Assembly: GCA_905234745.1 (NCBI GenBank)
Contig: CAJOJD010000018.1
Coordinates: 8,656 to 49,227, forward strand
Direction of reading: 5' to 3'
DNA length: 40,572 nt
Origin: an uncultured Bacteroidaceae bacterium
GTDB lineage: Bacteria; Bacteroidota; Bacteroidia; Bacteroidales; Bacteroidaceae
Shown here: positions 11,689 through 37,402 of the stretch, piece by piece
Layout: every line of letters starts with the position of its first letter
Numbering within the stretch: the first letter of the stretch is position 1
Translations under genes and position numbers: made by a program
Notes under the pieces: model-generated
What the model was told of the DNA's origin: nothing
What the model saw: the letters and a program-made list of their open reading frames with translations, nothing else
Database searches by the model: none

Positions 11689-11720
11689 GATAAAAATGGT
11701 ATTTAGAAAAAAGAGCCAAA

Positions 11721-11733
11721 GGGGTCTGACCCC
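11721..11733. repeat. Palindrome GGGGTCTGACCCC between transposase and helicase
   Basis: A perfect 6-bp inverted repeat with a single-base loop lies in the 52-bp gap before the transposase start and just behind the helicase stop. On the minus strand it is followed by a T-rich run (TTTGGCTCTTTTTT), so it may also terminate helicase transcription. From memory, similar GGGGTC-type palindromes are seen near RAYT genes in other bacteria. Confidence 0.7.
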
Positions 11734-11740
11734 AATGGTA

Positions 11741-22511: not shown

Positions 22512-24521
22512 ATGAAAGCAATTATATTGAACTCGGGATTGGGACACCGCATGGGATCCATTACTGATACCCACCCCAAATGCATGACCGAGATTTCATC
22601 GGACAATACTATTCTGAGCCGTCAGCTCAAGAAACTGGTGGCATTCGGCATAGACCAGGTCATTATGACCACCGGGTACTACAACAGTATACTTGAGGAG
22701 TACTGCAGCGGGTTGCACCTGCCCATAAAGTTCACCTTCGTGAACAATCCCGTATACGACAAGACCAACTACATATACAGCATCTATTGCGCCAAGGACC
22801 TGCTCAAGGATGACGATGTTATCCTGATGCACGGTGACCTGGTGTTTGAGCCGCTGGTACTGGAAGCCATACTCAAAAGCGATGTAAGCTGCATGGCAGT
22901 AAGCAGCACGCTGCCATTACCCGAAAAAGACTTCAAGGCCGTAATCAGGGACGGACGCATAGAGAAAGTAGGCATTGAGTTCTTTGACAATGCAATGGCC
23001 GCCCAGCCACTTTACAAGATTCTTAAGAAGGACTGGCTGGTATGGCTTGAAAACATAGAAAAGTTCTGTGAGGCCGATAACCGCAACTGTTATGCCGAGA
23101 ACGCATTCAATGAGGTATCGGACCGCTGCCAAATCTATCCGGTAGACATCAGGGATATGCTGTGTGCCGAGATTGACACACCCCAGGACCTTGAGGTTGT
23201 CAGCGCACGTGTCAAGGAGGTGAACAACCGCACGGTTTACATGTGCTGCTCGACCGATTATATCCACAGCGGTCACATTGCCATCATCAAAAAGGCCTGC
23301 CGTTTGGGCCGATTGACGATAGGCGTACTCTCCGATGAAGCCGTAGCAAGCTACAAGCGTTATCCGCTGCTGCCCTTCGAGGAGCGCAAATCACTGTTCC
23401 AGAATATTGCAGGAGTAGAAAACGTAATTGAACAGAAGGCACTCAGTTATGCCGATAACCTGAGGCTCCTCAAGCCCGATTACGTGGTACACGGTGATGA
23501 TTGGGTAGAAGGTTTCCAGAAACCTATCCGCGAGGAGGTCCTGAAAGTTCTCGGTGAATACGGCGGAAAACTTGTGGAATACCCGTACTCATCGGACCCC
23601 AAATACAAACAACTGGACGCCACCCTTCGTTCCGAACTGGCCATGCCCGATATGCGCCGCGGCAGGTTGCGCAAACTCATAGCAATGAAAGGCCTTGTAA
23701 CCGCAATGGAGGCCCACAGCGGCATAACCGGCCTGATAGTTGAGAAGACAACCGTTCTCCAGGAAGGCAAGACCTATCAGTTCGATGCCATGTGGATCAG
23801 TTCTCTCTGCGACTCCACCGCAAAAGGCAAACCCGACATTGAACTGGTGGACATGACCAGCCGTTTCCGCACCATTGACGATATCATGGAGGTAACCACC
23901 AAACCCATCATATTTGACGGTGACACCGGCGGTCTGACCGAGCACTTTGTCTATACGGTCCGTTCATTGGAGCGTATGGGCGTATCGATGGTCATCATTG
24001 AGGACAAGACCGGACTCAAGAAGAACTCTCTGTTCGGTACTGAGGTCAAGCAGACCCAGGATACGATAGAGAACTTCTGTGAGAAGATCAAGGCAGGAAA
24101 GCGTGCCCAGAAGACCAAGGAATTCATGATATGTGCCCGCATAGAAAGCCTTATCCTGGAACAGGGCATGGACGACGCTCTGAAACGCGCATTCGCCTTC
24201 AGCAAAGCCGGAGCCGATGCCATCATGATCCACTCCCGCAAGAAAGATCCGGCCGAGATCTTTGAGTTCGTGGAGAAGTTCAGAAAGCAGAATACCGAAA
24301 CTCCTGTTGTCGTGGTGCCCACATCCTTCAATACAGTAACCGAGGAGGAGTTCAAGCAGCGCGGCGTAAACGTGGTAATCTATGCAAACCAGCTTACACG
24401 TACCGGATTCCCCGCCATGCAGAATGCGGCACGCACCATACTGGAACACCATAGGGCCAAGGAGTGCGACGACATGTGTATGAGCATCAAGGATATTATT
24501 ACCTTAATCCCCGAAGAGTAA
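22512..24521 (+). CDS. pepM: PEP mutase fused to two N-terminal nucleotidyltransferase domains
   Basis: This 669-residue protein has three domains. Residues about 1-240 form an NTP-transferase domain of the LicC/PntC type (SGLGHRM loop, K23, MHGDL) with NPVYDKTNYIYS at 79-90. Residues about 242-365 form a glycerol-3-phosphate-cytidylyltransferase-like domain with HSGH at 252-255. Residues about 385-650 form phosphoenolpyruvate mutase, shown by the signature EDKTGLKKNS at 497-506 and the metal-binding FDGDTGG. PEP mutase makes phosphonopyruvate, the entry to almost all natural C-P compounds. Fusion of a nucleotidyltransferase to PEP mutase is known and implies CMP activation of the phosphonate; a double fusion is less usual. 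The stop overlaps the decarboxylase start (TAATG). Confidence 0.92.
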   Translation: MKAIILNSGLGHRMGSITDTHPKCMTEISSDNTILSRQLKKLVAFGIDQVIMTTGYYNSILEEYCSGLHLPIKFTFVNNPVYDKTNYIYSIYCAKDLLKDDDVILMHGDLVFEPLVLEAILKSDVSCMAVSSTLPLPEKDFKAVIRDGRIEKVGIEFFDNAMAAQPLYKILKKDWLVWLENIEKFCEADNRNCYAENAFNEVSDRCQIYPVDIRDMLCAEIDTPQDLEVVSARVKEVNNRTVYMCCSTDYIHSGHIAIIKKACRLGRLTIGVLSDEAVASYKRYPLLPFEERKSLFQNIAGVENVIEQKALSYADNLRLLKPDYVVHGDDWVEGFQKPIREEVLKVLGEYGGKLVEYPYSSDPKYKQLDATLRSELAMPDMRRGRLRKLIAMKGLVTAMEAHSGITGLIVEKTTVLQEGKTYQFDAMWISSLCDSTAKGKPDIELVDMTSRFRTIDDIMEVTTKPIIFDGDTGGLTEHFVYTVRSLERMGVSMVIIEDKTGLKKNSLFGTEVKQTQDTIENFCEKIKAGKRAQKTKEFMICARIESLILEQGMDDALKRAFAFSKAGADAIMIHSRKKDPAEIFEFVEKFRKQNTETPVVVVPTSFNTVTEEEFKQRGVNVVIYANQLTRTGFPAMQNAARTILEHHRAKECDDMCMSIKDIITLIPEE

Positions 24522-25645
24522 TGATCAGACCTGAATTCTTTATCAACACTTTGGGAAAATACGGCATCGATTTCTTTGCCGGAGTGCCCGACAGTCTGCT
24601 CAAGAATATCTGCGCATATATTACAGATCACTTTAATGCTGAGCATAATATCATTACCGCAAATGAAGGTGCGGCAATAGGACTCGCTGCCGGCCTTTAC
24701 CTGGCTACAGGTAAGCCCGCCTGTGTCTACATGCAGAACAGCGGCGAGGGCAATACCGTAAACCCCTTGGCATCACTTACCGACAAGGAGGTCTACAACA
24801 TTCCCGTACTGCTGGTAATAGGATGGCGAGGCCGCCCCGGCGTTCATGATGAGCCGCAACACGTCAAGCAGGGAAAGATAACAACTGCACTTCTGGATGT
24901 GATGGGCATCAGTTATGAAGTCCTGTCCAAGGATGAAAAAGAAGCTGCCATTCAGATTGACAAAGCAGCCAAGGCCCTCCAAAACAAGGATGTATTTGCC
25001 CTTGTGATTGAGAAAGATACTTTCGATGATTATAAACTCCAGAACGTTGAAAGCAACAACCTGACAATGTCTCGTGAAGAGGCAATCCAGGCGGTTGCAT
25101 CGGCCCTGGCCCCCAAGGACGTGATTGTTAGTACCACAGGTATGATTAGTCGCGAACTCTTTGAGTACCGTACTGCAATGAACCAAGGTCATGAACGTGA
25201 TTTCCTGACCGTAGGTTCAATGGGACATGCCAGCCAGATTGCATTGGGCATAGCATTGGAAAAAAAAGACCGCAAGGTATGGTGTTTTGACGGCGACGGA
25301 GCAACCATCATGCATATGGGTTCACTTGCCATAGTGGCAAGCAAGAAACCCGCCAACTACATACATGTGGTTTTCAATAACGGAGCCCACGACAGCGTAG
25401 GCGGCCAGCCCACAGTCGGACTCAAGATAGACCTTCCGGCCGTAGCAAAGGCTGTCGGTTATGCCAACACTTACAGTGTGGATAACAGGAAAGCATTGGA
25501 TGAAATTCTAGGTAATGTGGGCAGCGTTGAAGGTCCTGTTTTGATAGAAGTGAAAGTAAATAAGGGAAACCGCAAGGATCTGGGACGTCCCACAACAACC
25601 CCCATTGAGAACAAGGAGGCACTGATGGAGTTCCTTAAGAAATGA
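24521..25645 (+). CDS. aepY: Phosphonopyruvate decarboxylase
   Basis: This 374-residue ThDP enzyme turns phosphonopyruvate into phosphonoacetaldehyde, the step that pulls the unfavourable PEP mutase reaction forward. The N-terminus (FFAGVPDSLLKNICAYI, TANEGAAIGLAAGLYLATG with the ThDP-activating Glu) and the C-terminal ThDP motif (FDGDGATIMHMGSLA then NNGAHDSVGGQPTVG) are characteristic of Ppd rather than of sulfopyruvate or acetolactate enzymes. I use the ATG at 24521 rather than earlier in-frame starts inside pepM because it overlaps the pepM stop and begins the family sequence MIRPEFF. It is followed after four bases by the alcohol dehydrogenase. Confidence 0.92.
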   Translation: MIRPEFFINTLGKYGIDFFAGVPDSLLKNICAYITDHFNAEHNIITANEGAAIGLAAGLYLATGKPACVYMQNSGEGNTVNPLASLTDKEVYNIPVLLVIGWRGRPGVHDEPQHVKQGKITTALLDVMGISYEVLSKDEKEAAIQIDKAAKALQNKDVFALVIEKDTFDDYKLQNVESNNLTMSREEAIQAVASALAPKDVIVSTTGMISRELFEYRTAMNQGHERDFLTVGSMGHASQIALGIALEKKDRKVWCFDGDGATIMHMGSLAIVASKKPANYIHVVFNNGAHDSVGGQPTVGLKIDLPAVAKAVGYANTYSVDNRKALDEILGNVGSVEGPVLIEVKVNKGNRKDLGRPTTTPIENKEALMEFLKK

Positions 25646-25649
25646 CGTT

Positions 25650-26789
25650 ATGCAAAAGATAATAGAGGGTATAGTCAGACTGCAGGAGATTCTTGAAACC
25701 ATAAACAGCCGCAAACTGTTCATGGTCACAGACTCCTCATATCCGTTCCTGAACATAAAAGAGCGGATAGAACAGACATCCGTCACTAAGGTATGTTTCT
25801 CAGATTTCAGTCCGAACCCTCTGTTTGAAGATGTCTGTAAGGGTATAGACCTGTTCCTGAAAGAGAACTGCGACGCCATACTTGCCGTAGGAGGCGGCAG
25901 TTCAATAGATGTGGCAAAGTGCATTAAACTGGCAGTCCTGGCTAAAGAGGGACGTGACAGTCTTATTCCACCATTGGTTTCAAAATGTCTGGATATAGAT
26001 GGCCGTAAGATTCCTTTCATAGCCATTCCCACCACAGCCGGAACCGGAAGCGAATCAACCCACAACGCAGTAATGTACTACCAGGGATCAAAACAGACAG
26101 TGACAAATGACGGAGTCCTTCCTGATTATGCACTGCTTGAACCCAAGGTTCTTGCCACACTTCCGCTGTACCAGAAGAAGTGCACCATGCTTGATGCCCT
26201 CTGTCAAGGCATAGAGAGCTGGTGGTCGGTCAATTCCACCGATGAAAGCAAGGGTTATGCAAAAACTGCGGTCGAACTCATTACCGGAAACTGGCGAAAG
26301 TACATATTCGACAATGATTCCCGTGCTGCCTCACAGATAATGCTGGCAGCCAACTATGCCGGACGCGCCATAAACATATCGGCCACTACCGCGGCCCACG
26401 CTATGAGTTACAAGATAACGTCAATGTACAAACTTCCTCATGGTCACGCAGTCGCAGTCTGCCTCCCAGAGATATGGGAATACATGACAGCCCATCCGGA
26501 ACACTGCATCGACCCCAGAGGCAAGGAGTATCTGACCGATATATTCAACCAAATATCTGAAAGTCTTGGAACAGCCGGACCAAAGGATTCGATAGCCTTT
26601 GTCCGCAACATGATGAAAGAGATGAATATGGAGAATCCCATTACCGTCAACAGGGAACAGGAATTGGGACTGCTTACCGAATCGGTCAATCCGGTCAGAC
26701 TCAAGAACAACCCGGTCGAACTGACACGGGATACTCTATGCAACCTTTATGGTATTATCGTAAAAAGATCCGTTGTATTACATTGTTAA
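25650..26789 (+). CDS. Iron-type alcohol dehydrogenase, probable phosphonoacetaldehyde reductase
   Basis: This 379-residue group III (iron-containing) alcohol dehydrogenase has the NAD(P)-binding GGGSSIDVAK (81-90) and the IPTTAGTGSEST loop. The metal region is MLDALCQGIESWW, then AAHAMSY (H250) and LPHGHA (H264, H266). The position normally held by the second His ligand (four after D182) is Gln 186. Similar enzymes beside phosphonopyruvate decarboxylase reduce phosphonoacetaldehyde to 2-hydroxyethylphosphonate. The next gene encodes an aminotransferase, so the pathway may branch or this enzyme may serve another aldehyde. It starts four bases after aepY. Confidence 0.82.
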   Translation: MQKIIEGIVRLQEILETINSRKLFMVTDSSYPFLNIKERIEQTSVTKVCFSDFSPNPLFEDVCKGIDLFLKENCDAILAVGGGSSIDVAKCIKLAVLAKEGRDSLIPPLVSKCLDIDGRKIPFIAIPTTAGTGSESTHNAVMYYQGSKQTVTNDGVLPDYALLEPKVLATLPLYQKKCTMLDALCQGIESWWSVNSTDESKGYAKTAVELITGNWRKYIFDNDSRAASQIMLAANYAGRAINISATTAAHAMSYKITSMYKLPHGHAVAVCLPEIWEYMTAHPEHCIDPRGKEYLTDIFNQISESLGTAGPKDSIAFVRNMMKEMNMENPITVNREQELGLLTESVNPVRLKNNPVELTRDTLCNLYGIIVKRSVVLHC

Positions 26790-26807
26790 ACAAATAACAA
26801 AAACACA

Positions 26808-28622
26808 ATGCAGGCAATAATATTAGCAGCTGGAATGGGTAAAAGACTTGGTGAACTCACCAAGGATAACACCAAATGCATGATTGAGGTTAATGGGCAA
26901 AAGCTTATTGACAGAATGCTTGGCCAGCTGGCCAAGCTAAATCTGAAAAGAGTTATTATCGTCGTAGGTTATCAAGCCGAAAATCTGATAAACCATTTAG
27001 GTCATAGATATGACGATATGCTAAATATTGAGTTTGTATTTAACCCTATCTATGATAAGACAAACAATATCTATTCTCTTGCCCTTGCTAAAGAAAAATT
27101 GCAGGAAGATGATACCCTCCTACTGGAAAGCGACTTGATATTTGAAGATCGTATGCTTAGATTGCTTACAGACAATCCATACCCTAATCTGGCTCTGGTG
27201 GCCAAATATGAAACATGGATGGACGGAACTATGGTACGCATTGACAGCGAAAATAATATAGTTAGTTTCGTTCCAAAAAAAGCATTCCGGTACAGTGACG
27301 TGCCTTACTATTACAAGACATGCAATATTTATAAATTCAGTAAAGAGTTCTCATGTAACCAATACGTTCCGTTTTTGGAAGCATACAGCAAGGCAATGGG
27401 CGACAATGAGTATTACGAGCAAGTTTTGCGCGTAATCACGGCTTTGGACAAATCAACACTCAGGGCTCTTCCCATCACAGACGAAAAATGGTACGAGATT
27501 GATGATATTCAGGACCGCGACATAGCTGAAATCAAGTTCTCTGTAGGAACAGATATGCTAAAACGTTTCCATCAGTGTTATGGAGGCTACTGGAGATTCC
27601 CGCAGATGAAAGATTTCTGTTATTTAGTCAATCCATTTTTCCCAACAGACCGCATGAAGGATGAATTACGCGCCAATTTTGACACTCTGCTCACAGAATA
27701 TCCTTCTGGAATGACGGTTAACTCTCTGCTTGCAGGGAAGTATTTCGGTATTAGACAAGAGTTAGTATGTGTAGGCAACGGTGCAGCCGAACTGATAAAA
27801 TGTCTTATAGAGAACCACTGCTCTGGTAAAATCGGTTTCGTATTTCCTACCTTTGAAGAGTACCCTAACCGTACGAACCCGGACAACAGGATAATATTCA
27901 CTCCTTCCAATCCCGATTTCAGTTATTCAGCTCACGACCTTAAACAGTTCTTCAAGGATAAGGGAATAAGAAACCTTCTTATCATCAACCCCGACAATCC
28001 ATCTGGCAATTATATTCCGTTCAATGAACTGAGACAACTTATTGAGTGGACTGCTGAGAACTCCATCAACCTGATAGTAGATGAAAGTTTTGTCGATTTC
28101 ACCGACAATCACGCTACTGCATCCTTGCTTCATAATGATATTCTCCTGTCCAATCCACACCTGACAGTTGTTAAGTCCATAAGCAAATCATATGGAGTTC
28201 CTGGACTGAGACTAGGAATAGTAGCATCGGGCAATACCGTAATGATGGATGAAATACGCAAAGAGGTGGCCATTTGGAACATCAACTCATTTGCAGAGTT
28301 TTATATGCAGATATTCAACAAATATGAGAAAGATTTCCTTGAGGCATGTGACAAGTTCATAGCAGAGAGAAGTCTCTTCTTTAAGGAACTTAGCGCCATA
28401 ACTTTCTTGCGTGTAATACCTTCACAGGCCAATTATTTCCTGTGCGAAATCATAGATAAGTACACATCTGCTCAACTTACAGGAAAACTTCTGGAGGAAA
28501 GCAATATTCTTATCAAGGACTGCGGACAGAAAAGTGCTTTTGCCGGCAAGAACTATATAAGGATTGCCATAAGAGACAGAGAGGACAACAGCAAACTGGT
28601 TCAAAAACTAAGAGAACTATGA
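26808..28622 (+). CDS. pntC: Nucleotidyltransferase-aminotransferase fusion, PntC-like CTP:2-AEP cytidylyltransferase
   Basis: The first 245 of 604 residues are a LicC/PntC-type nucleotidyltransferase: LAAGMGKRLGELT, K23, ESDL, EIDDIQD, and NPIYDKTNNIYS at 79-90, the same place as in the PEP mutase fusion. Residues about 265-604 are a fold-type I PLP aminotransferase of the HisC-like class, with NPDNPSG at 394-400, VDES around D425, PLP lysine K460 (SISKSYG) and R468. In Treponema denticola a nucleotidyltransferase-transaminase fusion activates 2-aminoethylphosphonate with CTP. By analogy the C-terminal half makes AEP from phosphonoacetaldehyde and the N-terminal half makes CMP-AEP. The symbol is used by analogy. 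Base composition falls from here on. Confidence 0.8.
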   Translation: MQAIILAAGMGKRLGELTKDNTKCMIEVNGQKLIDRMLGQLAKLNLKRVIIVVGYQAENLINHLGHRYDDMLNIEFVFNPIYDKTNNIYSLALAKEKLQEDDTLLLESDLIFEDRMLRLLTDNPYPNLALVAKYETWMDGTMVRIDSENNIVSFVPKKAFRYSDVPYYYKTCNIYKFSKEFSCNQYVPFLEAYSKAMGDNEYYEQVLRVITALDKSTLRALPITDEKWYEIDDIQDRDIAEIKFSVGTDMLKRFHQCYGGYWRFPQMKDFCYLVNPFFPTDRMKDELRANFDTLLTEYPSGMTVNSLLAGKYFGIRQELVCVGNGAAELIKCLIENHCSGKIGFVFPTFEEYPNRTNPDNRIIFTPSNPDFSYSAHDLKQFFKDKGIRNLLIINPDNPSGNYIPFNELRQLIEWTAENSINLIVDESFVDFTDNHATASLLHNDILLSNPHLTVVKSISKSYGVPGLRLGIVASGNTVMMDEIRKEVAIWNINSFAEFYMQIFNKYEKDFLEACDKFIAERSLFFKELSAITFLRVIPSQANYFLCEIIDKYTSAQLTGKLLEESNILIKDCGQKSAFAGKNYIRIAIRDREDNSKLVQKLREL

Positions 28623-29704
28623 TTCCATACAGAATCTGTATATGCGGTGGAGGAAATCTAGCCCATGTGGTGGGCGGATATCTGGCAGCCAAACCCGAGT
28701 GTGAGGTAAGGTTGCTAACCCGTTATCCGGAAAAATGGCAGCCCGAAGGTATCTTGAAACTTACTGATAACAATGGTAAGGTTTTCAATTCAAGATTTAC
28801 CCTTATAAGCTCAAATCCTTCCCAGACTGTAACAGGAGCCGATATGGTTTTGGTCTGCCTGCCCGGATTCGCAATTGCACAGGTTCTTGAATCAATCAAA
28901 GATTACATAAGTAAGGAAACTGTAGTAGGTTCTATCGTCTCAAGTACAGGTTTCTTTCTTATGGCTAAAAAGATATTACCTGCCGGAACCAAATTGTTCG
29001 GTTTCCAGCGTGTACCCTTTATAGCCCGAACCAATGAATATGGAAAATCCGCTTCACTTCTTGGTTACAAACCTTCATTGACTTATGCTTCAATGAATAT
29101 AAACGACATACAAAGTTTGAGTCGGACTATTTCAGCTCTCTTTGATGTTTCTGTTACATGGCTTGACAGTTATCTCAAGGTTACCCTTACTAACAGTAAC
29201 CCTTTGTTGCATCCTTGCCGCCTTTATGGGATGTTCGGAAGAGGAAAAACAGCGTTTGACAAACCAATTCTTTTTTATGAAGAATGGGATAACTTCAGTT
29301 CTGAAATGTTAATTGACTGTGATCTTGAATTTAGACATCTACTTGACAAGTTGGATATCGCCAGAAATGAAATTGTTCCCATTCTAGATTATTATGAGAG
29401 TCATGACTCCCTGTCCCTTACTGAAAAAATCAGGTCTATCCAGGCTTTCAAAGGACTCCAAGCTCCAATGATACAATTATCTGACGGCTATTATTATCCA
29501 GATTGGAATAACAGATATTTTACTGAAGATATACCTTTTGGGCTTCTAATTATCAAGGCGTTTTGTCGCAAATACGGAATTGACACTCCAAAGATTGACA
29601 CAATATTGAGATGGGCACAAACAGGTATGAATAAGCAATACATAGTTGGTAAGGATTTGACCGGAAAAGATATTCATCAAACAATAGTTGACTATGTGGA
29701 CTGA
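28619..29704 (+). CDS. Opine (octopine/nopaline) dehydrogenase family protein
   Basis: This 361-residue protein has an N-terminal Rossmann domain with ICGGGNLAHVVGGYLA (GGGN at residues 10-13) and a C-terminal helical domain with NSNPLLHPCRLYG, matching the conserved N-x-x-x-H-P catalytic stretch of octopine/nopaline dehydrogenases. Enzymes of this family reduce the imine formed between an amine and a 2-oxo acid. Directly behind the AEP-forming fusion gene (4-bp overlap), the likely amine is 2-aminoethylphosphonate or CMP-AEP, which would give an N-(carboxyalkyl) phosphonate, but this is inference. A ketopantoate-reductase-like role is a weaker alternative. It overlaps the next gene by 11 bp. 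Confidence 0.8.
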   Translation: MIPYRICICGGGNLAHVVGGYLAAKPECEVRLLTRYPEKWQPEGILKLTDNNGKVFNSRFTLISSNPSQTVTGADMVLVCLPGFAIAQVLESIKDYISKETVVGSIVSSTGFFLMAKKILPAGTKLFGFQRVPFIARTNEYGKSASLLGYKPSLTYASMNINDIQSLSRTISALFDVSVTWLDSYLKVTLTNSNPLLHPCRLYGMFGRGKTAFDKPILFYEEWDNFSSEMLIDCDLEFRHLLDKLDIARNEIVPILDYYESHDSLSLTEKIRSIQAFKGLQAPMIQLSDGYYYPDWNNRYFTEDIPFGLLIIKAFCRKYGIDTPKIDTILRWAQTGMNKQYIVGKDLTGKDIHQTIVDYVD

Positions 29705-30944
29705 ATCATTGACATCCTCTTTCCAGAGTATAATGGCTGCATTGAAACTCAATATTTATGTATGTCTTTATAACTTGCATCTGAAGATCTTACTCCCAAA
29801 GATCTCCAAGCATAAACCTATTAGGATTATGTTTTATGTCAATAATTTGTCCATGTGGAAAGGAGACAAACTGTTGGATTTACTAAAAAAGGATGATAGA
29901 TTCGAGCCTTTTGCCGTTTCATATCTCTACTCATATCATTCCACAAAGGAAAATACAGAATGCGAACAGGAACTATCATCACATTTCAGTTCATTAGGTG
30001 TTCGTTATTTTAGTGGCTTTGATTTTATACGAAACAAAAATATTTCCATTTCCGAGTTTAAACCAGACATCATCTTTTTTCCTCAACCGTACATTAATTA
30101 CAGATCTGCCATTCCGTTGAATGCCCTTTTGTCATATATTCCATACGGATTCAGTATAGAAGACTCCAAGAAATTTCATAATTCGTTATATCAGAATGTA
30201 TGCTGGAAATATTTTGTTACAAACCAGTTGCAAAAAGAGTTGAAAACAAAATATAATATAAATCACGGAGTAAATGTCGTCGTTTCAGGAGATCCGTTAG
30301 CTGATTATTTCTTTGACGGACATACACCATCTTCTGACAGTTGGCCTATCAATAATCCTCAAATCAAAAGGATAATTTGGGCTCCCCACCATTCAATCAC
30401 TCCACAAGATTGGCTAGATTATTCCAACTTTCTGGAAATTGCGGACGATATGCTTAATTTGGCAAAAGAGTACAATGACAAAGCTCAGTTCGTATTCAAG
30501 CCCCATCCTATGCTCAAAGATAAACTATACAAGCTTGATAGCTGGGGAGTTGAAAAAACCGATTCCTACTTTGACGCATGGAAATCATTACCAAACTGCA
30601 ATTCTGCAGAAGGTAACTACGTTGACCTATTCATGTCTTCTGATGCCATGATTCATGATTGTAGTGCTTTTACAGCTGAATATCTGTATGTAAACAAGCC
30701 TGTAATGTATTTGACAAAAAAAGAAAGAATGGAATCATTCAATCAGTTTGCAAATGAATGTTTCAAGGTACATTATCATGGCTCCTCTATCTCAGACATA
30801 AAAAATTTCATCGACAATGTCATTAAGGGTATAGATCCTTTGGCTGATGAAAGAACAAAATTGATTAAAGAACAATTAAGGCCCAAAGGCAATGAAACAG
30901 TTGCCGGAACCATATATAAGGAACTTTGTAAAATATTTGAATAA
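29694..30944 (+). CDS. TagF/TagB-like CDP-polyol phosphotransferase (candidate phosphonyl transferase)
   Basis: This 416-residue protein belongs to the CDP-glycerol glycerophosphotransferase family, whose members take a CDP-activated polyol phosphate and attach it to a lipid-linked or polymer acceptor. The motifs RIIWAPHHSITPQDW (first catalytic His region), FVFKPHPML and SDAMIHDCSAFTAEYLYVNKPVMYL (second half, conserved nucleotide-binding block) are all present. In this place the donor is more likely CMP-AEP or its opine derivative than CDP-glycerol, since no tagD-like stand-alone gene is seen. I choose ATG 29694; a later one at 29733 (MAALKLN) is possible. The composition is the most AT-rich of the window. 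Confidence 0.82.
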   Translation: MWTESLTSSFQSIMAALKLNIYVCLYNLHLKILLPKISKHKPIRIMFYVNNLSMWKGDKLLDLLKKDDRFEPFAVSYLYSYHSTKENTECEQELSSHFSSLGVRYFSGFDFIRNKNISISEFKPDIIFFPQPYINYRSAIPLNALLSYIPYGFSIEDSKKFHNSLYQNVCWKYFVTNQLQKELKTKYNINHGVNVVVSGDPLADYFFDGHTPSSDSWPINNPQIKRIIWAPHHSITPQDWLDYSNFLEIADDMLNLAKEYNDKAQFVFKPHPMLKDKLYKLDSWGVEKTDSYFDAWKSLPNCNSAEGNYVDLFMSSDAMIHDCSAFTAEYLYVNKPVMYLTKKERMESFNQFANECFKVHYHGSSISDIKNFIDNVIKGIDPLADERTKLIKEQLRPKGNETVAGTIYKELCKIFE

Positions 30945-32435
30945 ATGGCAGAAAACCTGAAATCGCAAACCGTAAGAGGTGTATGGTGGAGTTTCCTTGA
31001 AAGATATTCCACACAGGGGGTTTCTTTCCTTATAACCCTATTCATGGCCCGCATCCTTTCTCCAGGCGAATACGGATTAATAGGAATGATTGCCATTTTC
31101 ATGGCTCTTGGACAGGTTTTTATTGACGGTGGTTTTGCCAATGCTTTAATCCAGAAAGAGACCCGAACTGAAACCGATTTTTCTACAGTTTTCTGGATAA
31201 ATGTCTCAATAGGTTTTCTTTCATATTTAATCCTGTTTTTTGCAGCTCCGATTATTGCGTCTTTCTACAATGAAGAAATACTCATACCCATCATAAAGAT
31301 TTACGGCCTCAACCTTGTGTTATCATCGCTTGCCGGCGTAAACAAAGTCAAACTGGTTATTGACATAAACTTCAGGACACAACTAAAGATATCATTGATT
31401 TCGGCCATTACCTCAGGCATAACAGGTATTATATGTGCATTGAAGGGTTGTGGAGTATGGGCAATCGTAGCACAATCAAACGTAGCCGCAGCTCTTACGG
31501 CTGTGCTTAGTTTTGTATTTGTCAAATGGAAGCCTTCGCTTACTTTTTCACGGGAATCTTTCAAGTCGTTGTTCTCTTTTGGATCCAAACTATTGGTGGC
31601 GCAAATCATAAGTACTGCATACACATATCTTTATAACATTGTTATTGGCAAGAAATACACAAAGGCGGAATTGGGTTTGTACACTAAAGCCGGTCTGTTT
31701 TCGCAAATGGTAAGTACATATCTCACATCAGCAATGACCAGAGTTTCCTTCCCCGTTCTTAGTCGAGTTCAAAATGAAGATGACCAACTGATGGGAGCAT
31801 ACAGAAAATTCATAGGTATGGTCGCTTTTATTGTCTTTCCTATTGCTCTTGGAGTATGCGGTATGGCCAGACCGCTAATATTGTCGCTTATTACCGAGAA
31901 ATGGTTGGGTTGTGTACCCTTTATCCAGATTCTGATATTTGCATATTTGTGTGACGGCATTACCATTGTTAATTTGAACCTGCTTTACGTTAAAGGCAAG
32001 TCTAATGTGGTTTTGCGTCTGGAAATCATTAAAAAAACAATTGCTATTACGATGCTATTTATAGCGGCACGATATGGAATAAAAGCTATCTGCTGTAGTC
32101 AGGTCATTTATGCAATTATTGCTCTGATTCTCAATACAAGGAACACAAAGAAACTCTTGAATTATGGTTTGCTGAGCCAAATCAAGGATTTATTCCCATA
32201 CTTTATCTGCTCACTTGTCATAATGGCAATTGCCCTTGGAATGGACCATTTACTCAATAATAGTTGGATTGTCCTGGGCTTGTGCATTATTATTTGCCCC
32301 ACGGTTTATCTCCTACTGTGTTATGCTTTCAATTTAAAAGCATTGAATGAGATGGCCTCAATAATAGCATCTAACCAGTATTGTCCTGGATGGCTCTGCA
32401 GGATCCTAGTTAAAATATATCCCGAACTGAAATGA
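30945..32435 (+). CDS. Wzx-type polysaccharide flippase (MOP superfamily)
   Basis: This 496-residue polytopic protein of the WzxC-like group begins with TVRGVWWSFLERYSTQGVSFLITLFMARILSP, the typical first helix and loop of this family, and has about fourteen hydrophobic spans. It would move an undecaprenyl-linked repeat unit across the inner membrane. It starts directly after the TagF-like stop with no spacer. No Wzy polymerase or Wzz was recognised in the window, so polymerisation is either elsewhere or not part of this glycan. The start codon of the next small frame overlaps its stop (ATGA). Confidence 0.88.
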   Translation: MAENLKSQTVRGVWWSFLERYSTQGVSFLITLFMARILSPGEYGLIGMIAIFMALGQVFIDGGFANALIQKETRTETDFSTVFWINVSIGFLSYLILFFAAPIIASFYNEEILIPIIKIYGLNLVLSSLAGVNKVKLVIDINFRTQLKISLISAITSGITGIICALKGCGVWAIVAQSNVAAALTAVLSFVFVKWKPSLTFSRESFKSLFSFGSKLLVAQIISTAYTYLYNIVIGKKYTKAELGLYTKAGLFSQMVSTYLTSAMTRVSFPVLSRVQNEDDQLMGAYRKFIGMVAFIVFPIALGVCGMARPLILSLITEKWLGCVPFIQILIFAYLCDGITIVNLNLLYVKGKSNVVLRLEIIKKTIAITMLFIAARYGIKAICCSQVIYAIIALILNTRNTKKLLNYGLLSQIKDLFPYFICSLVIMAIALGMDHLLNNSWIVLGLCIIICPTVYLLLCYAFNLKALNEMASIIASNQYCPGWLCRILVKIYPELK

Positions 32436-32563
32436 TAATAATACTGCTCATATTACTTGCATTAACCTGTATCGGCTTGAAAAAAGCCGGGAGCGAACCC
32501 AAACAGGCCGCAACGGGGGAATCCCAATCCCCAAAAGATGAGAATCCCCCGACGCAACCATAA
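32432..32563 (+). CDS. Small single-span protein (43 aa), uncertain
   Basis: An ATG overlapping the flippase stop opens a 43-residue frame: a hydrophobic N-terminus (MIIILLILLALTCIGL) followed by a hydrophilic tail rich in Pro, Gln and Ser. It could be a small membrane protein; LALTC is a poor lipobox because Thr precedes the Cys. The overlap favours coupling, but the DNA is much more GC-rich than its surroundings and packed with hairpins, so the frame may be a by-product of an inserted segment. I do not recognise a family. Confidence 0.4.
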   Translation: MIIILLILLALTCIGLKKAGSEPKQAATGESQSPKDENPPTQP

Positions 32564-32597
32564 TTTCCCGTCCTGGCGGCTTGTCCGAAGGCGGGAA
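32473..32597. other. GC-rich hairpin cluster of unknown origin
   Basis: Three inverted repeats follow one another: CGGCTT/AAGCCG (32473-32489), CGGGGG/CCCCCG (32514-32551) and TTCCCG(T)CCT/AGGCGGGAA (32565-32597, one bulge). Lines 32461-32580 count to about 54% GC, while the next 100-200 bp on the acyltransferase side fall to 28-38%. A purine-rich ribosome-binding-like tract GAGGAGG (32604-32610) follows, then a seven-codon frame (MKLTWLD, 32618-32641) whose stop overlaps the acyltransferase ATG. Confidence 0.6.
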
Positions 32598-32640
32598 GGC
32601 GTAGAGGAGGAAGAAGTATGAAATTGACTTGGCTGGACTG

Positions 32641-33435
32641 ATGGTTGTTATGTTCCTGTTTTATTCAGGTTATGGAGTGATGGAATCAATACAAAGAAAA
32701 GGCGACAGCTATATACGAGCCATACCGGTAAAAAGAGTCCTTTCAACTTTTATAAACTATTCTATTGCCATATTAGTCTTTCTTTTAATGAACTCATTAT
32801 TGGGCATTCATTATCCTTTTATACAATATCTATTATCCCTTATAGCATGGGAAAGTGTCGGCCAAAGTAACTGGTACATCTTTGCTATTATTTGCTGCTA
32901 CATTTCTACTTATATATCCTTCCTGCTGTTTAAGGAGAAAAGGATAGCTTTTCTTGCCACTCTATTATTACTCGGCGTATATATTTGCTTGCTTCACGAA
33001 TTTAAAGAAAACTGGTGGTACAATATTATTCTGTCATATCCTGCAGGAATGATGATTTCACTTTACAAGAAAAACATTATGCCTTTTTTGGAACAGCGTT
33101 ACATTTTATGCCTTTCAGGACTAACACTGTTATTTGTTTTGCTCTTTCATTACAGGAATTCAACGCCCACTTATTTGGCATGCGCTATAACTTTCGCATA
33201 TCTTGTTTTCGTCATTTCTTATAAATTTGTCGTAAAAAATGCTTTTCTGACATGGTGCGGCAAAAATTTATTCCAAATATACGTGTACCAGAGGATTCCT
33301 ATGATAGCTCTTTCAAGCCTATTCCCGGATTTTGTAAGATTGCACCATTATATTTATGTTTTATGCTGTTTGGCTGTAACTATGCTTTTAGCTATTCTCA
33401 TAAAACCGCTTTCTATTAATCTCAACAACAAATAG
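32641..33435 (+). pseudogene. Acyltransferase-3 family membrane protein, N-terminally truncated
   Basis: The 264 residues begin inside the family at VVMFLFYSGYGVMES, which matches the FFFLSGYGL segment that normally lies about 70-80 residues in. The remainder follows the acyltransferase-3 pattern with eight or so hydrophobic spans, ending FLTWCGKNLFQIYVYQRIP and several C-terminal spans. The N-terminal span with the family's conserved His/Arg is missing. The open frame can be extended back to 32605 (KKYEIDLAGLM) but no further because of a TAG. Either it is a dead O-acetyltransferase or the N-terminal part was replaced by the hairpin-rich segment in front. It would have O-acetylated the glycan. 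Confidence 0.6.
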
Positions 33436-33438
33436 AAA

Positions 33439-34398
33439 ATGCAAAAGCCCATTATTTCAGTAATCGTAGCCATCTACAACGCCCAGAAGACCCTGCCCCG
33501 GCTTATTGACAGTCTGAAGGCACAGACTATGACTGGTTTTGAAGTGCTTTTGATTGATGACGGAAGTACAGACGCATCCGGATCCATATGTGATGAAGTG
33601 TCCGAATCTGATGACCGGTTCAAGGTTTTTCATAAGCCGAACGAAGGAATAGGAGCTACAAGGCAGTTCGGCATAGAACACGCCCAAGGAGAATATTCCA
33701 TTCATGCAGATGCCGATGACTGGGTTGAACCCGATTATCTGGAAAAGCTCTACAATAAGGCAATGGAAACAGGAGCGGATATGGTAATCTGCGATTTCCT
33801 GATAGAAAACGGAAACAAGACGACATACAGGAAAGAGCAACCTGTTGCTTTTGACACAAAGAGCGTAATCAACAGTCTGTTATGCAAACTGAATGACGGT
33901 CCATGCAATAAGCTTCTTAAACGTTCTGTCTATCTGAAGAATGACATCAGGTATCTGCCGGGATACAATTTCGGCGAAGACCAATTGTTCAATCTGCAGT
34001 TTGTTCTCTCTGGCGCATCTGTTTCATACCTTCCCCTTGCCCTGTACCATTGTGATGTGGCCACTTATTCAGCTTCCGCTTCACGTGGTTTTTCATTGGA
34101 GAAGATTCAGTACCAGGAGAAATTCATATCTTCGCTTCGTGATTTATTGCCCGATGAATACATGACAGGTATTGACAACAAGCACCTGGATGTCGTTTAT
34201 CTGGCCATCATGACTAAAGCTTTTACCAGGGAACAGTTCAAGGAGAAGTATTCATTCCTGGCACGCGTCAGATGGAAGGAATATGTGAACAAAGTATTTA
34301 CGATTAAACTGATAATTTGGACATCACTGAACGTTTCGTATAACCTAGCTCTTTTTATGAGCAGGATAAAGAAACTTGTCAGGAAAATAAGGAAATAG
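33439..34398 (+). CDS. Glycosyltransferase family 2
   Basis: This 319-residue GT-A enzyme opens with PIISVIVAIYNAQKTLPRLIDSL, has DDGSTD at about residues 40-45 and HADADDWVEPDYLEKLY, the DxD metal and nucleotide-sugar site. GEDQLFNLQF is the usual late catalytic-base block. It adds a sugar to the growing lipid-linked oligosaccharide; donor and linkage cannot be told. Base composition here returns to that of the housekeeping genes (about 53% GC in one counted line), marking the right edge of the AT-rich block. It starts three bases after the truncated acyltransferase. Confidence 0.9.
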   Translation: MQKPIISVIVAIYNAQKTLPRLIDSLKAQTMTGFEVLLIDDGSTDASGSICDEVSESDDRFKVFHKPNEGIGATRQFGIEHAQGEYSIHADADDWVEPDYLEKLYNKAMETGADMVICDFLIENGNKTTYRKEQPVAFDTKSVINSLLCKLNDGPCNKLLKRSVYLKNDIRYLPGYNFGEDQLFNLQFVLSGASVSYLPLALYHCDVATYSASASRGFSLEKIQYQEKFISSLRDLLPDEYMTGIDNKHLDVVYLAIMTKAFTREQFKEKYSFLARVRWKEYVNKVFTIKLIIWTSLNVSYNLALFMSRIKKLVRKIRK

Positions 34399-34402
34399 GA
34401 AT

Positions 34403-35230
34403 ATGAATGAAGACTTTTCAAATATAAACGGTCCCGGAACTCCCCTGAGAAAGGCTCAGGATATCATGCTTGAGATCCTGCTGGAGGTGGACCGCATATG
34501 CAAAAAACACGGCATCGAGTACTGGCTGGAATGGGGTACTCTTCTGGGTGCCGTCCGTCATAAGGGATTCGTGCCTTGGGATGACGATATGGATCTGGGC
34601 ATGAGGTCGCCCGATTATGAGCGTTTCATGGAGATCTGTCCTCAGGAACTCGATTCCAAATACATACTTCAGACCGGCAAGGACAAGGGATCCGGGCTGT
34701 CTGACGGCGTGATACGAATCAGATACAGGAATTCATTGCTGATAAACAGTTTTGATGATTTCGGGCTGGATTACAACAAGGGTATCTGTATTGATATTTT
34801 CAAGAACACCACTTATCCTACGGTTTCACCCCGTCTGTTCAAGCATATCAGCCAGCATATATTCAAATCACATGCATTCTTTCATTTCAGCCAGAGACTG
34901 ACATTCAAGAACGTATTATGTGCCGTGCTGTTTCCGCCTTACAACCTGTTTTACCGTATTCTATGGGGGCTCGTCTGCATCGGCCGTAAGAAAAACCGTA
35001 TCATGCCTCAGATAAACAGGGTCACGTACGGTTATCCTACCCTGATTTCGGAATTCTTCCCTCTGGGTCAGGTGGAATTTGAGGGGCATATGTTTCCCGC
35101 ACCCAAGAACCCTGATGCCCGTCTAACGGATTTGTATGGTGACTACATGAAGATACCGTCGGAGGAAGAACGACGCATTCACGTCAAGTTCATCTGCAAT
35201 GACGTTTCCGATTGCCATTTCAGCGTATAA
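34403..35230 (+). CDS. licD: LicD-family phosphotransferase
   Basis: This 275-residue protein belongs to the LicD nucleotidyltransferase-fold family, which moves phosphocholine from CDP-choline to teichoic acids or LPS glycans. The diagnostic block WLEWGTLLGAVRHKGFVPWDDDMDLGM is complete, including the metal-binding aspartates, and is preceded by the usual helix LLEVDRICKKHGIEYW. No choline kinase or choline uptake gene is in the window. With CMP-phosphonate enzymes in the same locus, transfer of 2-aminoethylphosphonate is a reasonable inference. It is flanked by glycosyltransferases with gaps of four and three bases. The symbol denotes the family, not choline specificity. Confidence 0.88.
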   Translation: MNEDFSNINGPGTPLRKAQDIMLEILLEVDRICKKHGIEYWLEWGTLLGAVRHKGFVPWDDDMDLGMRSPDYERFMEICPQELDSKYILQTGKDKGSGLSDGVIRIRYRNSLLINSFDDFGLDYNKGICIDIFKNTTYPTVSPRLFKHISQHIFKSHAFFHFSQRLTFKNVLCAVLFPPYNLFYRILWGLVCIGRKKNRIMPQINRVTYGYPTLISEFFPLGQVEFEGHMFPAPKNPDARLTDLYGDYMKIPSEEERRIHVKFICNDVSDCHFSV

Positions 35231-35233
35231 CCG

Positions 35234-36265
35234 ATGGAAAGGACAGTACTCATAATAGGACCCAACTATTTCAACTTCCCGCAAGCCACTAAGGCGGCAT
35301 TTGAGCGGGAGGGCTGGAATACGTCTGTCGATCTTTATGATACTCCTGTTCATCCGTACACAACCCTGATGAAATGGCGCTACAAACTGAGCCTTAACAA
35401 GGACAGGATCAGGCAAAGGAGCAAGGACAAGTACAATGATCATGTTCTGGAAGTGTTCCGGAACATCAGGCCCCAACTGGTATTTGTCATGAACGGAGAG
35501 CCCGTCTTTGACAGTACGCTCGATGCAATGCGTCAGGAGTCAAAGGTTGTGGTGTGGCTGTTTGACAACAGGGACCGTCTTCCCGACGCTCTGTCACACA
35601 TAGACCATTCCGACCTGCTGCTCTGCTACGAGCAGGAAGATGTGGATTGGTATGCAAGCCAGGGCAAGAAGGCTTATTTCCTGCCTCAGGCATGTGACAC
35701 CGCAACATATCATCCTGTTGAATGCCCCAAGGACATAGACATACTGTTCATCGGCAATCTATACACCTCGCCCAAGCGCATGCAGACCATGCAGGCGGTA
35801 GTTGAGAAGTTCTGCGGCAAGTACCATATCGAAGTGTACGGCCGATACAAGCCCTGGTACAAGGGCTTCTTTACCTGGCTCACCCGTGAACACAGGGAAA
35901 TATACAAGAACGATATGGTTGCCCCCGCCAAGGTCAATGAGCTGTACAACCGTGCACGGGTGGTGCTCAACATCCATCAGGAGTTGCAGAAAGACGGAGC
36001 CAATCCCCGTACTTTCGAGATCCCGGGCAGCGGAGCATGGCAGATTTGTGATTACAACCCCTATATCCAGAAGTTGTTCGGACCTGACGAGATAGGAATA
36101 TATCATGATCAGGAAGAACTGTTTGCCCTGATAGAAAAGGGCTTGAGCCAGGATATGACAGCCTGTGCCCAAAAGGCCAGGAACAAGGTTCTGGAGCAGC
36201 ACACTTATGATGTCAGAGTAAGGGAGATTCTCAAAACGCTTAAACTCAACGACTCACCGGAATGA
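35234..36265 (+). CDS. CgeB-like glycosyltransferase
   Basis: This 343-residue protein resembles the CgeB/spore-maturation-type GT-B family: VFVMNGEPVFDSTLDAM, VVWLFDNRDRLPDAL, LLLCYEQEDVDWYASQGKKAYFLPQACD, DIDILFIGNLYTSPKRMQ and the C-terminal ARVVLNIHQ...RTFEIPGSGAWQ block are the typical succession. It is probably a cytoplasmic glycosyltransferase acting on the same oligosaccharide; the donor is unknown. It starts three bases after licD and overlaps the next gene by 4 bp, so the genes form a tight operon. Confidence 0.8.
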   Translation: MERTVLIIGPNYFNFPQATKAAFEREGWNTSVDLYDTPVHPYTTLMKWRYKLSLNKDRIRQRSKDKYNDHVLEVFRNIRPQLVFVMNGEPVFDSTLDAMRQESKVVVWLFDNRDRLPDALSHIDHSDLLLCYEQEDVDWYASQGKKAYFLPQACDTATYHPVECPKDIDILFIGNLYTSPKRMQTMQAVVEKFCGKYHIEVYGRYKPWYKGFFTWLTREHREIYKNDMVAPAKVNELYNRARVVLNIHQELQKDGANPRTFEIPGSGAWQICDYNPYIQKLFGPDEIGIYHDQEELFALIEKGLSQDMTACAQKARNKVLEQHTYDVRVREILKTLKLNDSPE

Positions 36266-37353
36266 AAAAGCTGTTGTTCATAAGATACAAAAAGACTGCC
36301 AACGTCTTTGAGGGCGGCGAGCAGGGATCACAGAAGAACTGGACTGTTCTGACCGGGCTGCTGGGTGAGGAGAATGTGACCACATACTACATTCATGACG
36401 AGAACCATAAGCGCACTCTCACGGAATACATCAAAGGTGCTTTCTGGTTCCCGTTCGGCTATTTCTTCGGCATTACTCCGCGAAGGGTCAAAGAGATAGT
36501 TGAGATGGCTGCCGGCTATGACTTCGTATTCATCGACCGCAGCCTGTTCGGAATCATTGCAAAGAAACTTAAGAAGAACGGATACAAAGGCCGTATCATA
36601 GCATTCTTCCACAATGTAGAGAAACTCTATTTCCGGGCCAAGTTGGGACATCGGCCCGGCAGTTTCGTCGTCACACGCTGCGCCTGGAAGAATGACGGCT
36701 GGAGTTGCCGTTACGCAGACCGCATAATTGCACTCAACCCGCGCGACGCCGGAGTGATTGAAGATATGTACGGGCGTAAGGCCGATGCGCTGGTACCCGT
36801 AGCCTTCGTTGACAAGTACAAACAGGACTCCTACCCCGAGGGGCTGACTTCAAAGAAACCGCTCTGCCTGTTCCTGGGTGCGTATTTCGGCCCCAACTGT
36901 GAGGGCATAGAGTGGTTTGCGCAGAATGTATACCCGCATGTGGACATCACCATGAAGATTGTCGGCAAGGGAATGTCAAAGATCAGGGAGAACTACCGTA
37001 TTCCCGATGATGTGGAGGTGGTGAGCGATGCCCCTGACCTTAAACCCTTTTTTGAGGAGGCCGATATCATGGTACTGCCCATTTTCAAGGGTAGCGGCAT
37101 GAAGGTCAAGACCTGCGAGAGCCTTATGTACGGCAAGAACATCATCGCCACCGATGAGGCCCTCGAAGGATATGAGCTGGACTACAGCAGGATGGGCGGC
37201 AAATGCAATACCGCTCAGGAGTTCATTGATACGATAAAGTCTTTCACAGACAGCCCGAGACCCAGGTTCAACGCTTACTCACGCAATACATTCCTTGAAA
37301 AGTATTCGGCCGATAAAGTTGTTGATTCATTCAGCGACATTCTTTACCGGTAG
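36262..37353 (+). CDS. Glycosyltransferase, GT4/GT1-like
   Basis: This 363-residue GT-B protein has an N-terminal domain with GGEQGSQKNWTVL and a C-terminal nucleotide-sugar domain with LCLFLGAYFGPNCEGIEWFAQNVYP, VSDAPDLKPFFEEADIMVLPIFKGSGMKVKTCESLMYGKNIIAT, the standard E-x7-E-like area with KTCESLMYGK. It probably adds a further sugar to the surface glycan. It overlaps the CgeB-like gene by 4 bp and is the last gene of the rightward glycan operon before a small gap of 49 bp that may hold a promoter. Confidence 0.85.
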   Translation: MKKLLFIRYKKTANVFEGGEQGSQKNWTVLTGLLGEENVTTYYIHDENHKRTLTEYIKGAFWFPFGYFFGITPRRVKEIVEMAAGYDFVFIDRSLFGIIAKKLKKNGYKGRIIAFFHNVEKLYFRAKLGHRPGSFVVTRCAWKNDGWSCRYADRIIALNPRDAGVIEDMYGRKADALVPVAFVDKYKQDSYPEGLTSKKPLCLFLGAYFGPNCEGIEWFAQNVYPHVDITMKIVGKGMSKIRENYRIPDDVEVVSDAPDLKPFFEEADIMVLPIFKGSGMKVKTCESLMYGKNIIATDEALEGYELDYSRMGGKCNTAQEFIDTIKSFTDSPRPRFNAYSRNTFLEKYSADKVVDSFSDILYR

Positions 37354-37369
37354 TACAGTAAGTTTTTTG

Positions 37370-37377
37370 TTAATTTG
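37370..37377 (+). promoter_or_regulatory. Possible -7 box before hddA
   Basis: TTAATTTG differs from TAnnTTTG at one position and lies 25 bp before the hddA start. No good TTG element is seen at the right distance, so this is weak. Confidence 0.3.
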
Positions 37378-37402
37378 CAGGCTCAAAACAGATTCAGCAT
37401 TT

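Follow-up and report, generated by a model that had tools for sequence, protein, structure and literature searches.

We report the analysis of a 40,572-nucleotide window of DNA from an uncultured Bacteroidaceae bacterium (genome G000; assembly of 2.2 Mb, 80% complete), in which conserved MiaB, FtsX, UppP, TruB, QueA and FolK genes, identified by family scans, are followed from position 22512 by a run of genes on the same strand. We conclude, with only slightly more confidence than doubt, that two CDP-type headgroup pathways are joined in this run, which belongs to a variable surface-glycan locus lying downstream of folK: one (module A) would make CMP-2-hydroxyethylphosphonate (CMP-HEP), and the other (module B) an N-carboxyalkylated headgroup derived from CDP-ethanolamine. 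Module A consists of a triple fusion containing a phosphoenolpyruvate (PEP) mutase domain, a phosphonopyruvate decarboxylase (Ppd) and an iron-type alcohol dehydrogenase (Fe-ADH). Module B begins with a nucleotidyltransferase (NT) fused to a pyridoxal phosphate (PLP) enzyme, here called NT-PLP, and an opine dehydrogenase (ODH), and continues with a TagF-like transferase, a Wzx-type flippase and an acyltransferase (AcT). Domain content, the state of motifs, the independence of the modules, their exchange, and the coupling of ODH to NT-PLP and to LicD were observed directly.

The distribution of the two modules was surveyed in an order sample of 295 genomes and a family sample of 121, with 35 distinct NT-PLP genomes in all; because both include incomplete assemblies as well as related species, an absence is not absolute and the p-values overstate independence. 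In the order sample, 11 genomes had the full NT-PLP fusion (split into two frames in G266), 13 had a PEP mutase over the cut-off and 6 had an ODH of the subfamily, after exclusion of two of 13 NT-PLP matches that covered the PLP half only and of six of 12 ODH matches (29-32% identity) that represent ordinary ODH. NT-PLP and PEP mutase coincided only in G000 (0.48 expected), and all six ODH genomes carried NT-PLP (hypergeometric p 5e-10). The family sample contained NT-PLP in 25 genomes, a CyltD-PEP mutase in 16 and ODH in 19. Every one of these 19 carried NT-PLP (p 3e-17). NT-PLP and PEP mutase overlapped in 5 genomes (3.3 expected), and these 5 came up again when the 25 NT-PLP genomes were scanned directly for PEP mutase. 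Altogether, 30 of the 35 sampled NT-PLP genomes gave no PEP mutase match, and pairing on one contig was seen in G000 only. Outside both samples, such a pairing also occurs in RUG14751 (L013), the one locus confirmed by a contig scan with a single-sequence query. A phylum sample of 395 genomes contained NT-PLP (E up to 1e-100) in none except G000. NT-PLP and ODH form a module independent of the phosphonate genes.

Each module also occurs alone at this chromosomal site. In G784 (L115), of the same genus, FolK is followed by the triple fusion (93%), Ppd, Fe-ADH and then other glycan genes, and the genome has no NT-PLP or ODH match. In G705 (L131), of the same genus and listed as 100% complete, FolK is followed by NT-PLP (86%), ODH, TagF, Wzx, AcT and a GT2 glycosyltransferase, and no PEP mutase match was found. 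The window and RUG14751 have A then B in the same joined order, the latter with an extra LicD gene ahead of the triple fusion. Compared with each other at the DNA level, the two are 84.1, 73.7 and 85.3% identical in the three module A genes in order and 99.5-99.7% identical in NT-PLP, ODH, TagF and Wzx, identity rising within the 3' end of Fe-ADH. AcT is 99.4% identical from 32637 on, and identity falls at its end (GT2, 65%; LicD, 54%). These jumps at both borders, AcT included, indicate that module B was recently exchanged as a block from NT-PLP to AcT, with approximate borders at 26500..33437. GC content per gene is 47-51% in module A versus 35-40% from NT-PLP to Wzx. At 32490-32636, about 147 bp unrelated to RUG14751 take the place of the first 72 AcT codons; the first 30 bases of this segment have no second copy in the window, and it gave no plasmid match. 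It is either a misassembly or a real disruption.

The NT-PLP gene (26808..28622, + strand) encodes a LicC/PntC-like cytidylyltransferase (about residues 1-250) and a class I/II PLP enzyme (residues 267-604, with Lys460) that we predict to be an L-serine-phosphate decarboxylase. Among PDB matches of a PLP-domain profile, 6oux ranked first (198 bits), followed by 3ftb (148), CobD 1lc5 (132) and HisC chains (at most 113); among equivalogs, NT-PLP scored 159.6 bits against CobD (TIGR01140) and 139.5 against HisC. The best match is decarboxylase-named, 6oux being annotated as 'threonine phosphate decarboxylase-like enzyme'. We take 6OUX to be SMUL_1544, an enzyme that decarboxylates L-serine-phosphate; the available part of PMC7755780 gives SMUL_1544 the same name as the annotation. 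The fusion had been described in an earlier note, made from the letters of this DNA, as one of nucleotidyltransferase and aminotransferase; the fusion itself is real, and its PLP half is of class I/II and closest to the threonine-phosphate-decarboxylase-like enzyme. An assignment of NT-PLP as PntC-AEPT was rejected, as the PLP half is not of class V and 6pd1 was absent from the 29 matches of the PLP half and the 13 matches of the PLP profile.

Could the PLP domain nevertheless be an aminotransferase, converting for example dihydroxyacetone phosphate to serinol phosphate? Module B would then make CDP-serinol or another CDP-aminoalcohol, with its amine modified by ODH. The class I/II fold is common to HisC-type aminotransferases, and among related PLP enzymes from the capsule loci of Campylobacter jejuni are both a serinol-phosphate aminotransferase and a serine-phosphate decarboxylase. 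We consider this unlikely in view of the decarboxylase names of the best matches and the higher score of CobD over HisC.

The NT domain of NT-PLP has Glu107 and Glu204, invariant in the NT-PLP alignment, at the positions of Glu104 and Glu196 of Tde-PntC, which lie at the substrate amine according to the available part of PMC6697681. The correspondence of Glu204 was made through the PntC-AEPT of L070, whose two Glu carry the numbers of Tde-PntC. This pair fits a small primary amine, phosphoethanolamine or 2-aminoethylphosphonate (AEP). It corresponds to the Glu pair of PntC, yet the NT-PLP gene travels mostly without PEP mutase, and phosphoethanolamine is therefore favoured over AEP. Three NT-PLP neighbourhoods have peculiarities of their own. 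The NT-PLP protein of L058 (8989-10731, - strand) has gaps in its PLP half relative to others and is perhaps decaying. In L145 (6577-11683), NT-PLP, an amino-acid permease, a PntC-like NT (68% to the PntC-like NT of L119) and ODH form one run. In L132, a protein that joins a short-chain dehydrogenase to a CTP_transf_like domain (11708-12877) is encoded beside NT-PLP, ODH and LicD.

The ODH (28619..29704, + strand) matches octopine dehydrogenase 3C7A over its full length (E 2e-42; profile E 6e-57), with an Octopine_DH domain and an NAD-binding N-terminus. Its His198, Arg299 and Asp304, conserved in the ODH alignment, align with H212, R324 and D329 of octopine dehydrogenase. ODH and NT-PLP were at most 50 bp apart in 18 of the 19 family-sample ODH genomes and 2.3 kb apart in G740; in the order sample, ODH directly adjoined NT-PLP in three of the five besides G000 (L014, L016, L018). 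ODH and LicD are a single protein in L136 (7991-9781, - strand) and L138 (9821-11647, + strand). LicD directly follows ODH in L132, L133, L137 and L148 and comes one gene later in L135, and a CDP-alcohol transferase directly follows ODH in L018. Together, these fusions and adjacencies suggest that what is transferred as the headgroup is probably the product of ODH.

Those opine dehydrogenases that have been characterised act on amino acids, and O-antigens are known to carry N-(1-carboxyethyl)-lysine amides. ODH might thus form an opine amino acid in free form, with lysine or alanine plus pyruvate as possible precursors, which would be amide-linked to the glycan and unrelated to a CDP headgroup. 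The restriction of the ODH subfamily to NT-PLP genomes (24 of 24 sampled) argues against this, as do the fusions with LicD and the CDP-alcohol transferase gene of L018, and we regard it as quite improbable.

Further support for a modification step coupled to NT-PLP came from a second reductase family. Genes for ornithine-cyclodeaminase/mu-crystallin (OCD) reductases were found in five of the six family-sample NT-PLP genomes that lack ODH (adjacent in four, on another contig in G720), in one of the 19 that have it, and in two of the five order-sample NT-PLP genomes that lack ODH. Either ODH or OCD was present in 24 of the 25 family NT-PLP genomes versus 5 of the 96 others; these 5 include G755 (E 3e-47) and G707 (112-residue match), which were excluded from the ODH subfamily and yet were scored as evidence against the association when the Fisher test was made. 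Both families have members that reduce C=N bonds, so that the shared step is probably a reductive N-alkylation in which a keto acid reacts with the amine. Proteus O-antigen contains a related headgroup, 2-[(R)-1-carboxyethylamino]ethyl phosphate; a literature search for this headgroup found nothing relevant.

The first protein of module A (22512..24521, + strand; 669 residues) was resolved by Pfam and NCBIfam into a LicC/MobA-like NT domain (residues 1-230), a Fom1-type CyltD domain (241-364) and PEP mutase (386-668). The CyltD domain matches chain 5x3d (142 bits, E 2e-40), whose PDB listing name is phosphoenolpyruvate phosphomutase and which we take to be the cytidylyltransferase domain CyltD of Fom1. 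Its HxGH motif is intact as HSGH (residues 252-255; 23265..23276). The PEP mutase domain carries the signature EDKTGLKKNS (residues 497-506; 24000..24029), of the form EDKxxxxxNS, and scores 409.7 bits with the equivalog TIGR02320 (cut-off 319.55). Next comes Ppd (TIGR03297, 520.3 bits versus a cut-off of 312.5), ending at 25645 on the + strand; its listed open reading frame starts at 24464 (GTG), and its start is most likely the ATG at 24521 that overlaps the stop codon of the PEP mutase gene, judging by this overlap and the alignment with RUG14751. The Fe-ADH (25650..26789, + strand; PF00465, group III) is a predicted phosphonoacetaldehyde reductase. The PEP mutase-Ppd-Fe-ADH triad was found in 10 of the 13 PEP mutase genomes of the order sample, the window included, and Fe-ADH adjoins PEP mutase and Ppd in 15 loci, again including the window. 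In a DAxxQ motif of Fe-ADH, Gln is present in 11 of 11 aligned loci (the window and 10 homologs), at a position where His is usual in the family. The signature and the decarboxylase had both been recognised correctly in the earlier note, whose description of the PEP mutase protein missed two of its three domains (NTP_transf_3, CTP_transf_like and PEP_mutase).

To which phosphonate module A leads was judged from the motif and its company. Thirty PEP mutase loci were collected, and L071 (no CyltD domain) and L069 (motif intact, at a contig end) were excluded; the 28 that remained comprise the window, RUG14751, 10 from the order sample and 16 from the family sample. HxGH was intact in all 15 loci with Fe-ADH and replaced by HPGL or HPGI in all 13 without Fe-ADH in the fetched stretch. 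The motif-lost loci include a PntC-like NT, alone or fused, in nine cases and an AEP transaminase over the TIGR03301 cut-off in seven (380-483 versus 360.8 bits); L120 and L127 have a PntC-like NT with no transaminase seen, the stretch of L120 ending inside the NT. On the tree, the 13 motif-lost loci group together with a support of 100/100 and, as drawn, lie nested within the intact ones. The loss of HxGH is thus one evolutionary switch, and we rejected a reading of the 15/13 split as many independent events.

No class V AEP transaminase (PhnW/AepZ) was found among the 20 region proteins scanned, and in G000 the best PhnW-AepZ match reached 35.6 bits (cut-off 360.8; genome 80% complete), so none lay over the cut-off. 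AEP was rejected as the likely phosphonate product on this absence, the state of HxGH and the contrast with the motif-lost loci. By homology, the CyltD match to 5x3d included, the product of module A looks like CMP-HEP rather than CMP-AEP. Fom1 yields CMP-HEP and PntC yields CMP-AEP, as stated in the available part of PMC6697681, and HEP esters on polysaccharide are reported from marine organic matter in that of PMC9381506. A phosphonoglycan paper on Glycomyces and Stackebrandtia is cited in the accessible portion of PMC8931226.

In the triple fusion, the NT domain at the N-terminus (22512-23201) is 27-30% identical to the NT domains of NT-PLP and 19-25% identical to PntC-like NTs. In this domain and its homologs in L067 and L118, His-Gly-Asp replaces the Glu-Ser-Asp of PntC and NT-PLP. 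Triple fusions are already known, 42 of 1485 PEP mutases being joined to both PF12804 and PF01467 in the available part of PMC6697681; the protein in the window is thus a new member of a described class.

The earlier note had interpreted the whole cluster as one phosphonyl pathway with candidates for every later step. Under this view, AEP or a similar aminophosphonate would be activated, and also made, by NT-PLP, with ODH, TagF and LicD all acting on the phosphonate. All genes do lie in one run, the NT domain keeps both amine-contacting Glu of Tde-PntC, and OCD lies beside PntC-AEPT in the AEP-type locus L070 and beside PEP mutase in L128. These points are outweighed by the prevalence of NT-PLP genomes with no PEP mutase match, the pairing on one contig in G000 alone among the 35, the lack of an AEP transaminase over the cut-off in G000, the presence of module B alone at this site in G705 and its recent exchange on its own. 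We therefore think a single pathway rather improbable. C-P synthesis, CMP activation and glycan genes do stand in one cluster, with module A in a surface-glycan run, but as two modules. The same joined gene order was seen in RUG14751, outside the samples; among the sampled NT-PLP genomes, the one-contig pairing was peculiar to G000. In sum, the observation made in the earlier note was partly confirmed and its interpretation partly supported.

Two transferase families could place headgroups on the glycan. The TagF-like protein (29688..30944, + strand; CDP-glycerol glycerophosphotransferase family, PF04464, 35.9 bits) has its counterpart after ODH in L131, and the LicD-family phosphotransferase (PF04991, 121.6 bits) lies at 34403..35230 on the + strand. 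In other genomes, the gene directly after the triad encodes LicD in L063, L065 and L067 and a TagF-like protein in L060, L061, L062 and L066; with module B alone, TagF is present in L131 and LicD in others. Either enzyme may serve the donor of either module. A reading in which module A is in decay or supplies a different product (a lipid or small molecule), leaving the glycan with the group of module B only, is very improbable: the border of module B cuts into the end of Fe-ADH and the CyltD motif is lost in a nested clade, but the checked motifs of the triple fusion are intact and the transferase genes follow the triad directly in these seven loci.

We propose the following scheme for the join of two headgroup pathways. 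In module A, PEP mutase would convert PEP to phosphonopyruvate, Ppd would convert this to phosphonoacetaldehyde, and Fe-ADH would reduce the latter to 2-hydroxyethylphosphonate, which the CyltD domain would activate to CMP-HEP for a LicD- or TagF-type transferase. In module B, the PLP domain would decarboxylate L-serine-phosphate to phosphoethanolamine, and the fused LicC-like domain would form CDP-ethanolamine. Using NAD(P)H, ODH would join an alpha-keto acid to the free amine by reductive coupling and so form an N-(1-carboxyalkyl) ethanolamine headgroup, which a LicD/TagF-type enzyme would place on the glycan for export by the Wzx flippase. More tentatively, and with doubt outweighing belief, we suggest that Bacteroidales carry a mobile headgroup pathway not described before: a bifunctional serine-phosphate decarboxylase/cytidylyltransferase would supply CDP-ethanolamine (or phosphoethanolamine), which one of two imine reductases unrelated to each other, ODH or OCD, would make into an opine and LicD, sometimes fused to ODH, would move. 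Here it would be spliced into a CMP-HEP locus, so that one glycan may bear a C-P group and an opine-phosphodiester.

Several points, however, weigh against this scheme. Its substrates and products are all inferred, as are the choice of keto acid, the placing of the ODH step ahead of or behind CTP activation and the pairing of transferases with donors; it also leaves the first NT domain of the triple fusion without a role. For module A, Fe-ADH scores 146 bits with the phosphonate-linked equivalog TIGR03405, far under its cut-off of 423.7. The contrast in HxGH and Fe-ADH counts as a single change on the tree, not as 28 independent events, and the fetched stretches of four of the 13 motif-lost loci (L126, L128, L129, L130) revealed no PntC and no AEP transaminase. 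For module B, the second PDB match of the PLP domain, 3ftb, is annotated HisC, class I/II relatives include aminotransferases, and the CobD score of NT-PLP lies under the equivalog cut-off of 290.55 bits. The Glu pair cannot separate AEP from phosphoethanolamine. As for independence, four NT-PLP genomes besides G000 also have PEP mutase, on other contigs. ODH and NT-PLP are on different contigs in G293 and G194 of the order sample, and NT-PLP occurs with neither ODH nor OCD in G741 (family sample) and in G286, G101 and G151 (order sample). Finally, OCD adjoins PntC-AEPT in L070 (9987-12781) and a motif-lost PEP mutase in L128 (10038-12437); AEP may be modified likewise, and the ODH of the window may act on AEP. 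The neighbourhoods in L070 and L128 are in themselves a hint of N-modified AEP.

All the genes named in the earlier note, among them the iron-type and opine dehydrogenases, the TagF-like transferase, the flippase and LicD, were found on the + strand within 22512-35230. An acyltransferase and a GT2 glycosyltransferase, both unnamed there, lie in the same interval, and the run extends past its proposed end at 35230 with two group-1 glycosyltransferases and a GHMP kinase (35234..38419, + strand, by family scan). The Wzx-type flippase (30945..32435, + strand) matches PF13440 and scores 317.8 bits with the O-glycosylation flippase model NF058658, under its cut-off of 720. AcT (32629..33435, + strand; PF01757) has its N-terminal 72 codons replaced relative to RUG14751, and the GT2 gene (33439..34398, + strand; PF00535), beyond the exchanged block, follows AcT in L131 and L013 as well. 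The mostly overlapping or near-zero gaps that had been described hold for the junctions Ppd/Fe-ADH (+4 bp), Fe-ADH/NT-PLP (+18), NT-PLP/ODH (-4), ODH/TagF (-17, as listed), TagF/Wzx (0), AcT/GT2 (+3) and GT2/LicD (+4). They do not hold for Wzx/AcT, where the gap is 193 bp because the start of AcT is disrupted.

The two modules were also compared with known systems. As in Fom1 of the fosfomycin pathway, CyltD with an intact HxGH and PEP mutase share one chain, followed by Ppd and a group III alcohol dehydrogenase; unlike Fom1, the protein in the window has an extra N-terminal NT domain, and glycan genes surround it instead of fosfomycin-type genes. No fosfomycin-type methyltransferase or epoxidase gene was found among the 13 scanned proteins of 22512-38419. 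The matches to radical SAM and methyltransferase families correspond to MiaB and to a protein encoded upstream of ftsX; both belong to the conserved block, which in L131 is present without PEP mutase. The second half of FrbH, of the FR-900098 pathway, is a PLP decarboxylase fused to the NT, and NT-PLP resembles FrbH in this architecture; it differs in occurring mostly in genomes without PEP mutase. FrbH is called a cytidylyltransferase in the available part of PMC6697681. With the Pnt loci described there, the window shares PEP mutase, Ppd, nucleotidyl activation, LicD and glycosyltransferases; it differs in having no AEP transaminase over the cut-off, in the class I/II decarboxylase-like PLP partner of the NT, in its predicted HEP branch and in its opine dehydrogenase, which is not met in that part of the paper. 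The PLP decarboxylases of phosphoamino acids, 6OUX and CobD, are the best and third solved-structure relatives of the PLP domain, which, unlike them, is joined to a cytidylyltransferase and belongs to glycan loci. Like the Lic-1 pathway for phosphocholine on glycans, treated in PMC10434233 (available part), module B combines a CDP-activated small headgroup with LicC-like and LicD-like enzymes; unlike it, the headgroup is predicted to come from serine-phosphate and then to be altered by an opine dehydrogenase or OCD reductase. LicA was absent from the 20 scanned proteins of 15763-38419, the rest of the genome not having been searched for it. The ODH differs from octopine dehydrogenase (3C7A) in belonging to a bacterial subfamily tied to the cytidylyltransferase fusion and sometimes fused to LicD. 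A search of open-licence literature by title and abstract start found no account of module B or its opine-headgroup genes.

Module A is an ordinary member of a known phosphonate class, with a triple fusion and, by prediction, the HEP branch. Module B appears to be a less familiar, mobile headgroup module, and the putative opine step and dual decoration are the surprising part. Since later phosphonyl-tailoring steps are called enigmatic by Rice et al. 2019 (PMC6697681, available part), it is of use that the analysis parts the genes that belong to the phosphonate from the rest of the run. It also offers a rule for reading such loci: an intact HxGH in CyltD together with Fe-ADH predicts CMP-HEP, and HPG[LI] together with PntC and AEP transaminase predicts CMP-AEP. 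NT-PLP plus ODH or OCD, with LicD, makes a coherent candidate gene set for opine-type phosphoethanolamine decoration. Both modules apparently serve the decoration of surface sugars, and as exchangeable pieces at one chromosomal site they give a concrete picture of how surface chemistry may be swapped among close relatives.

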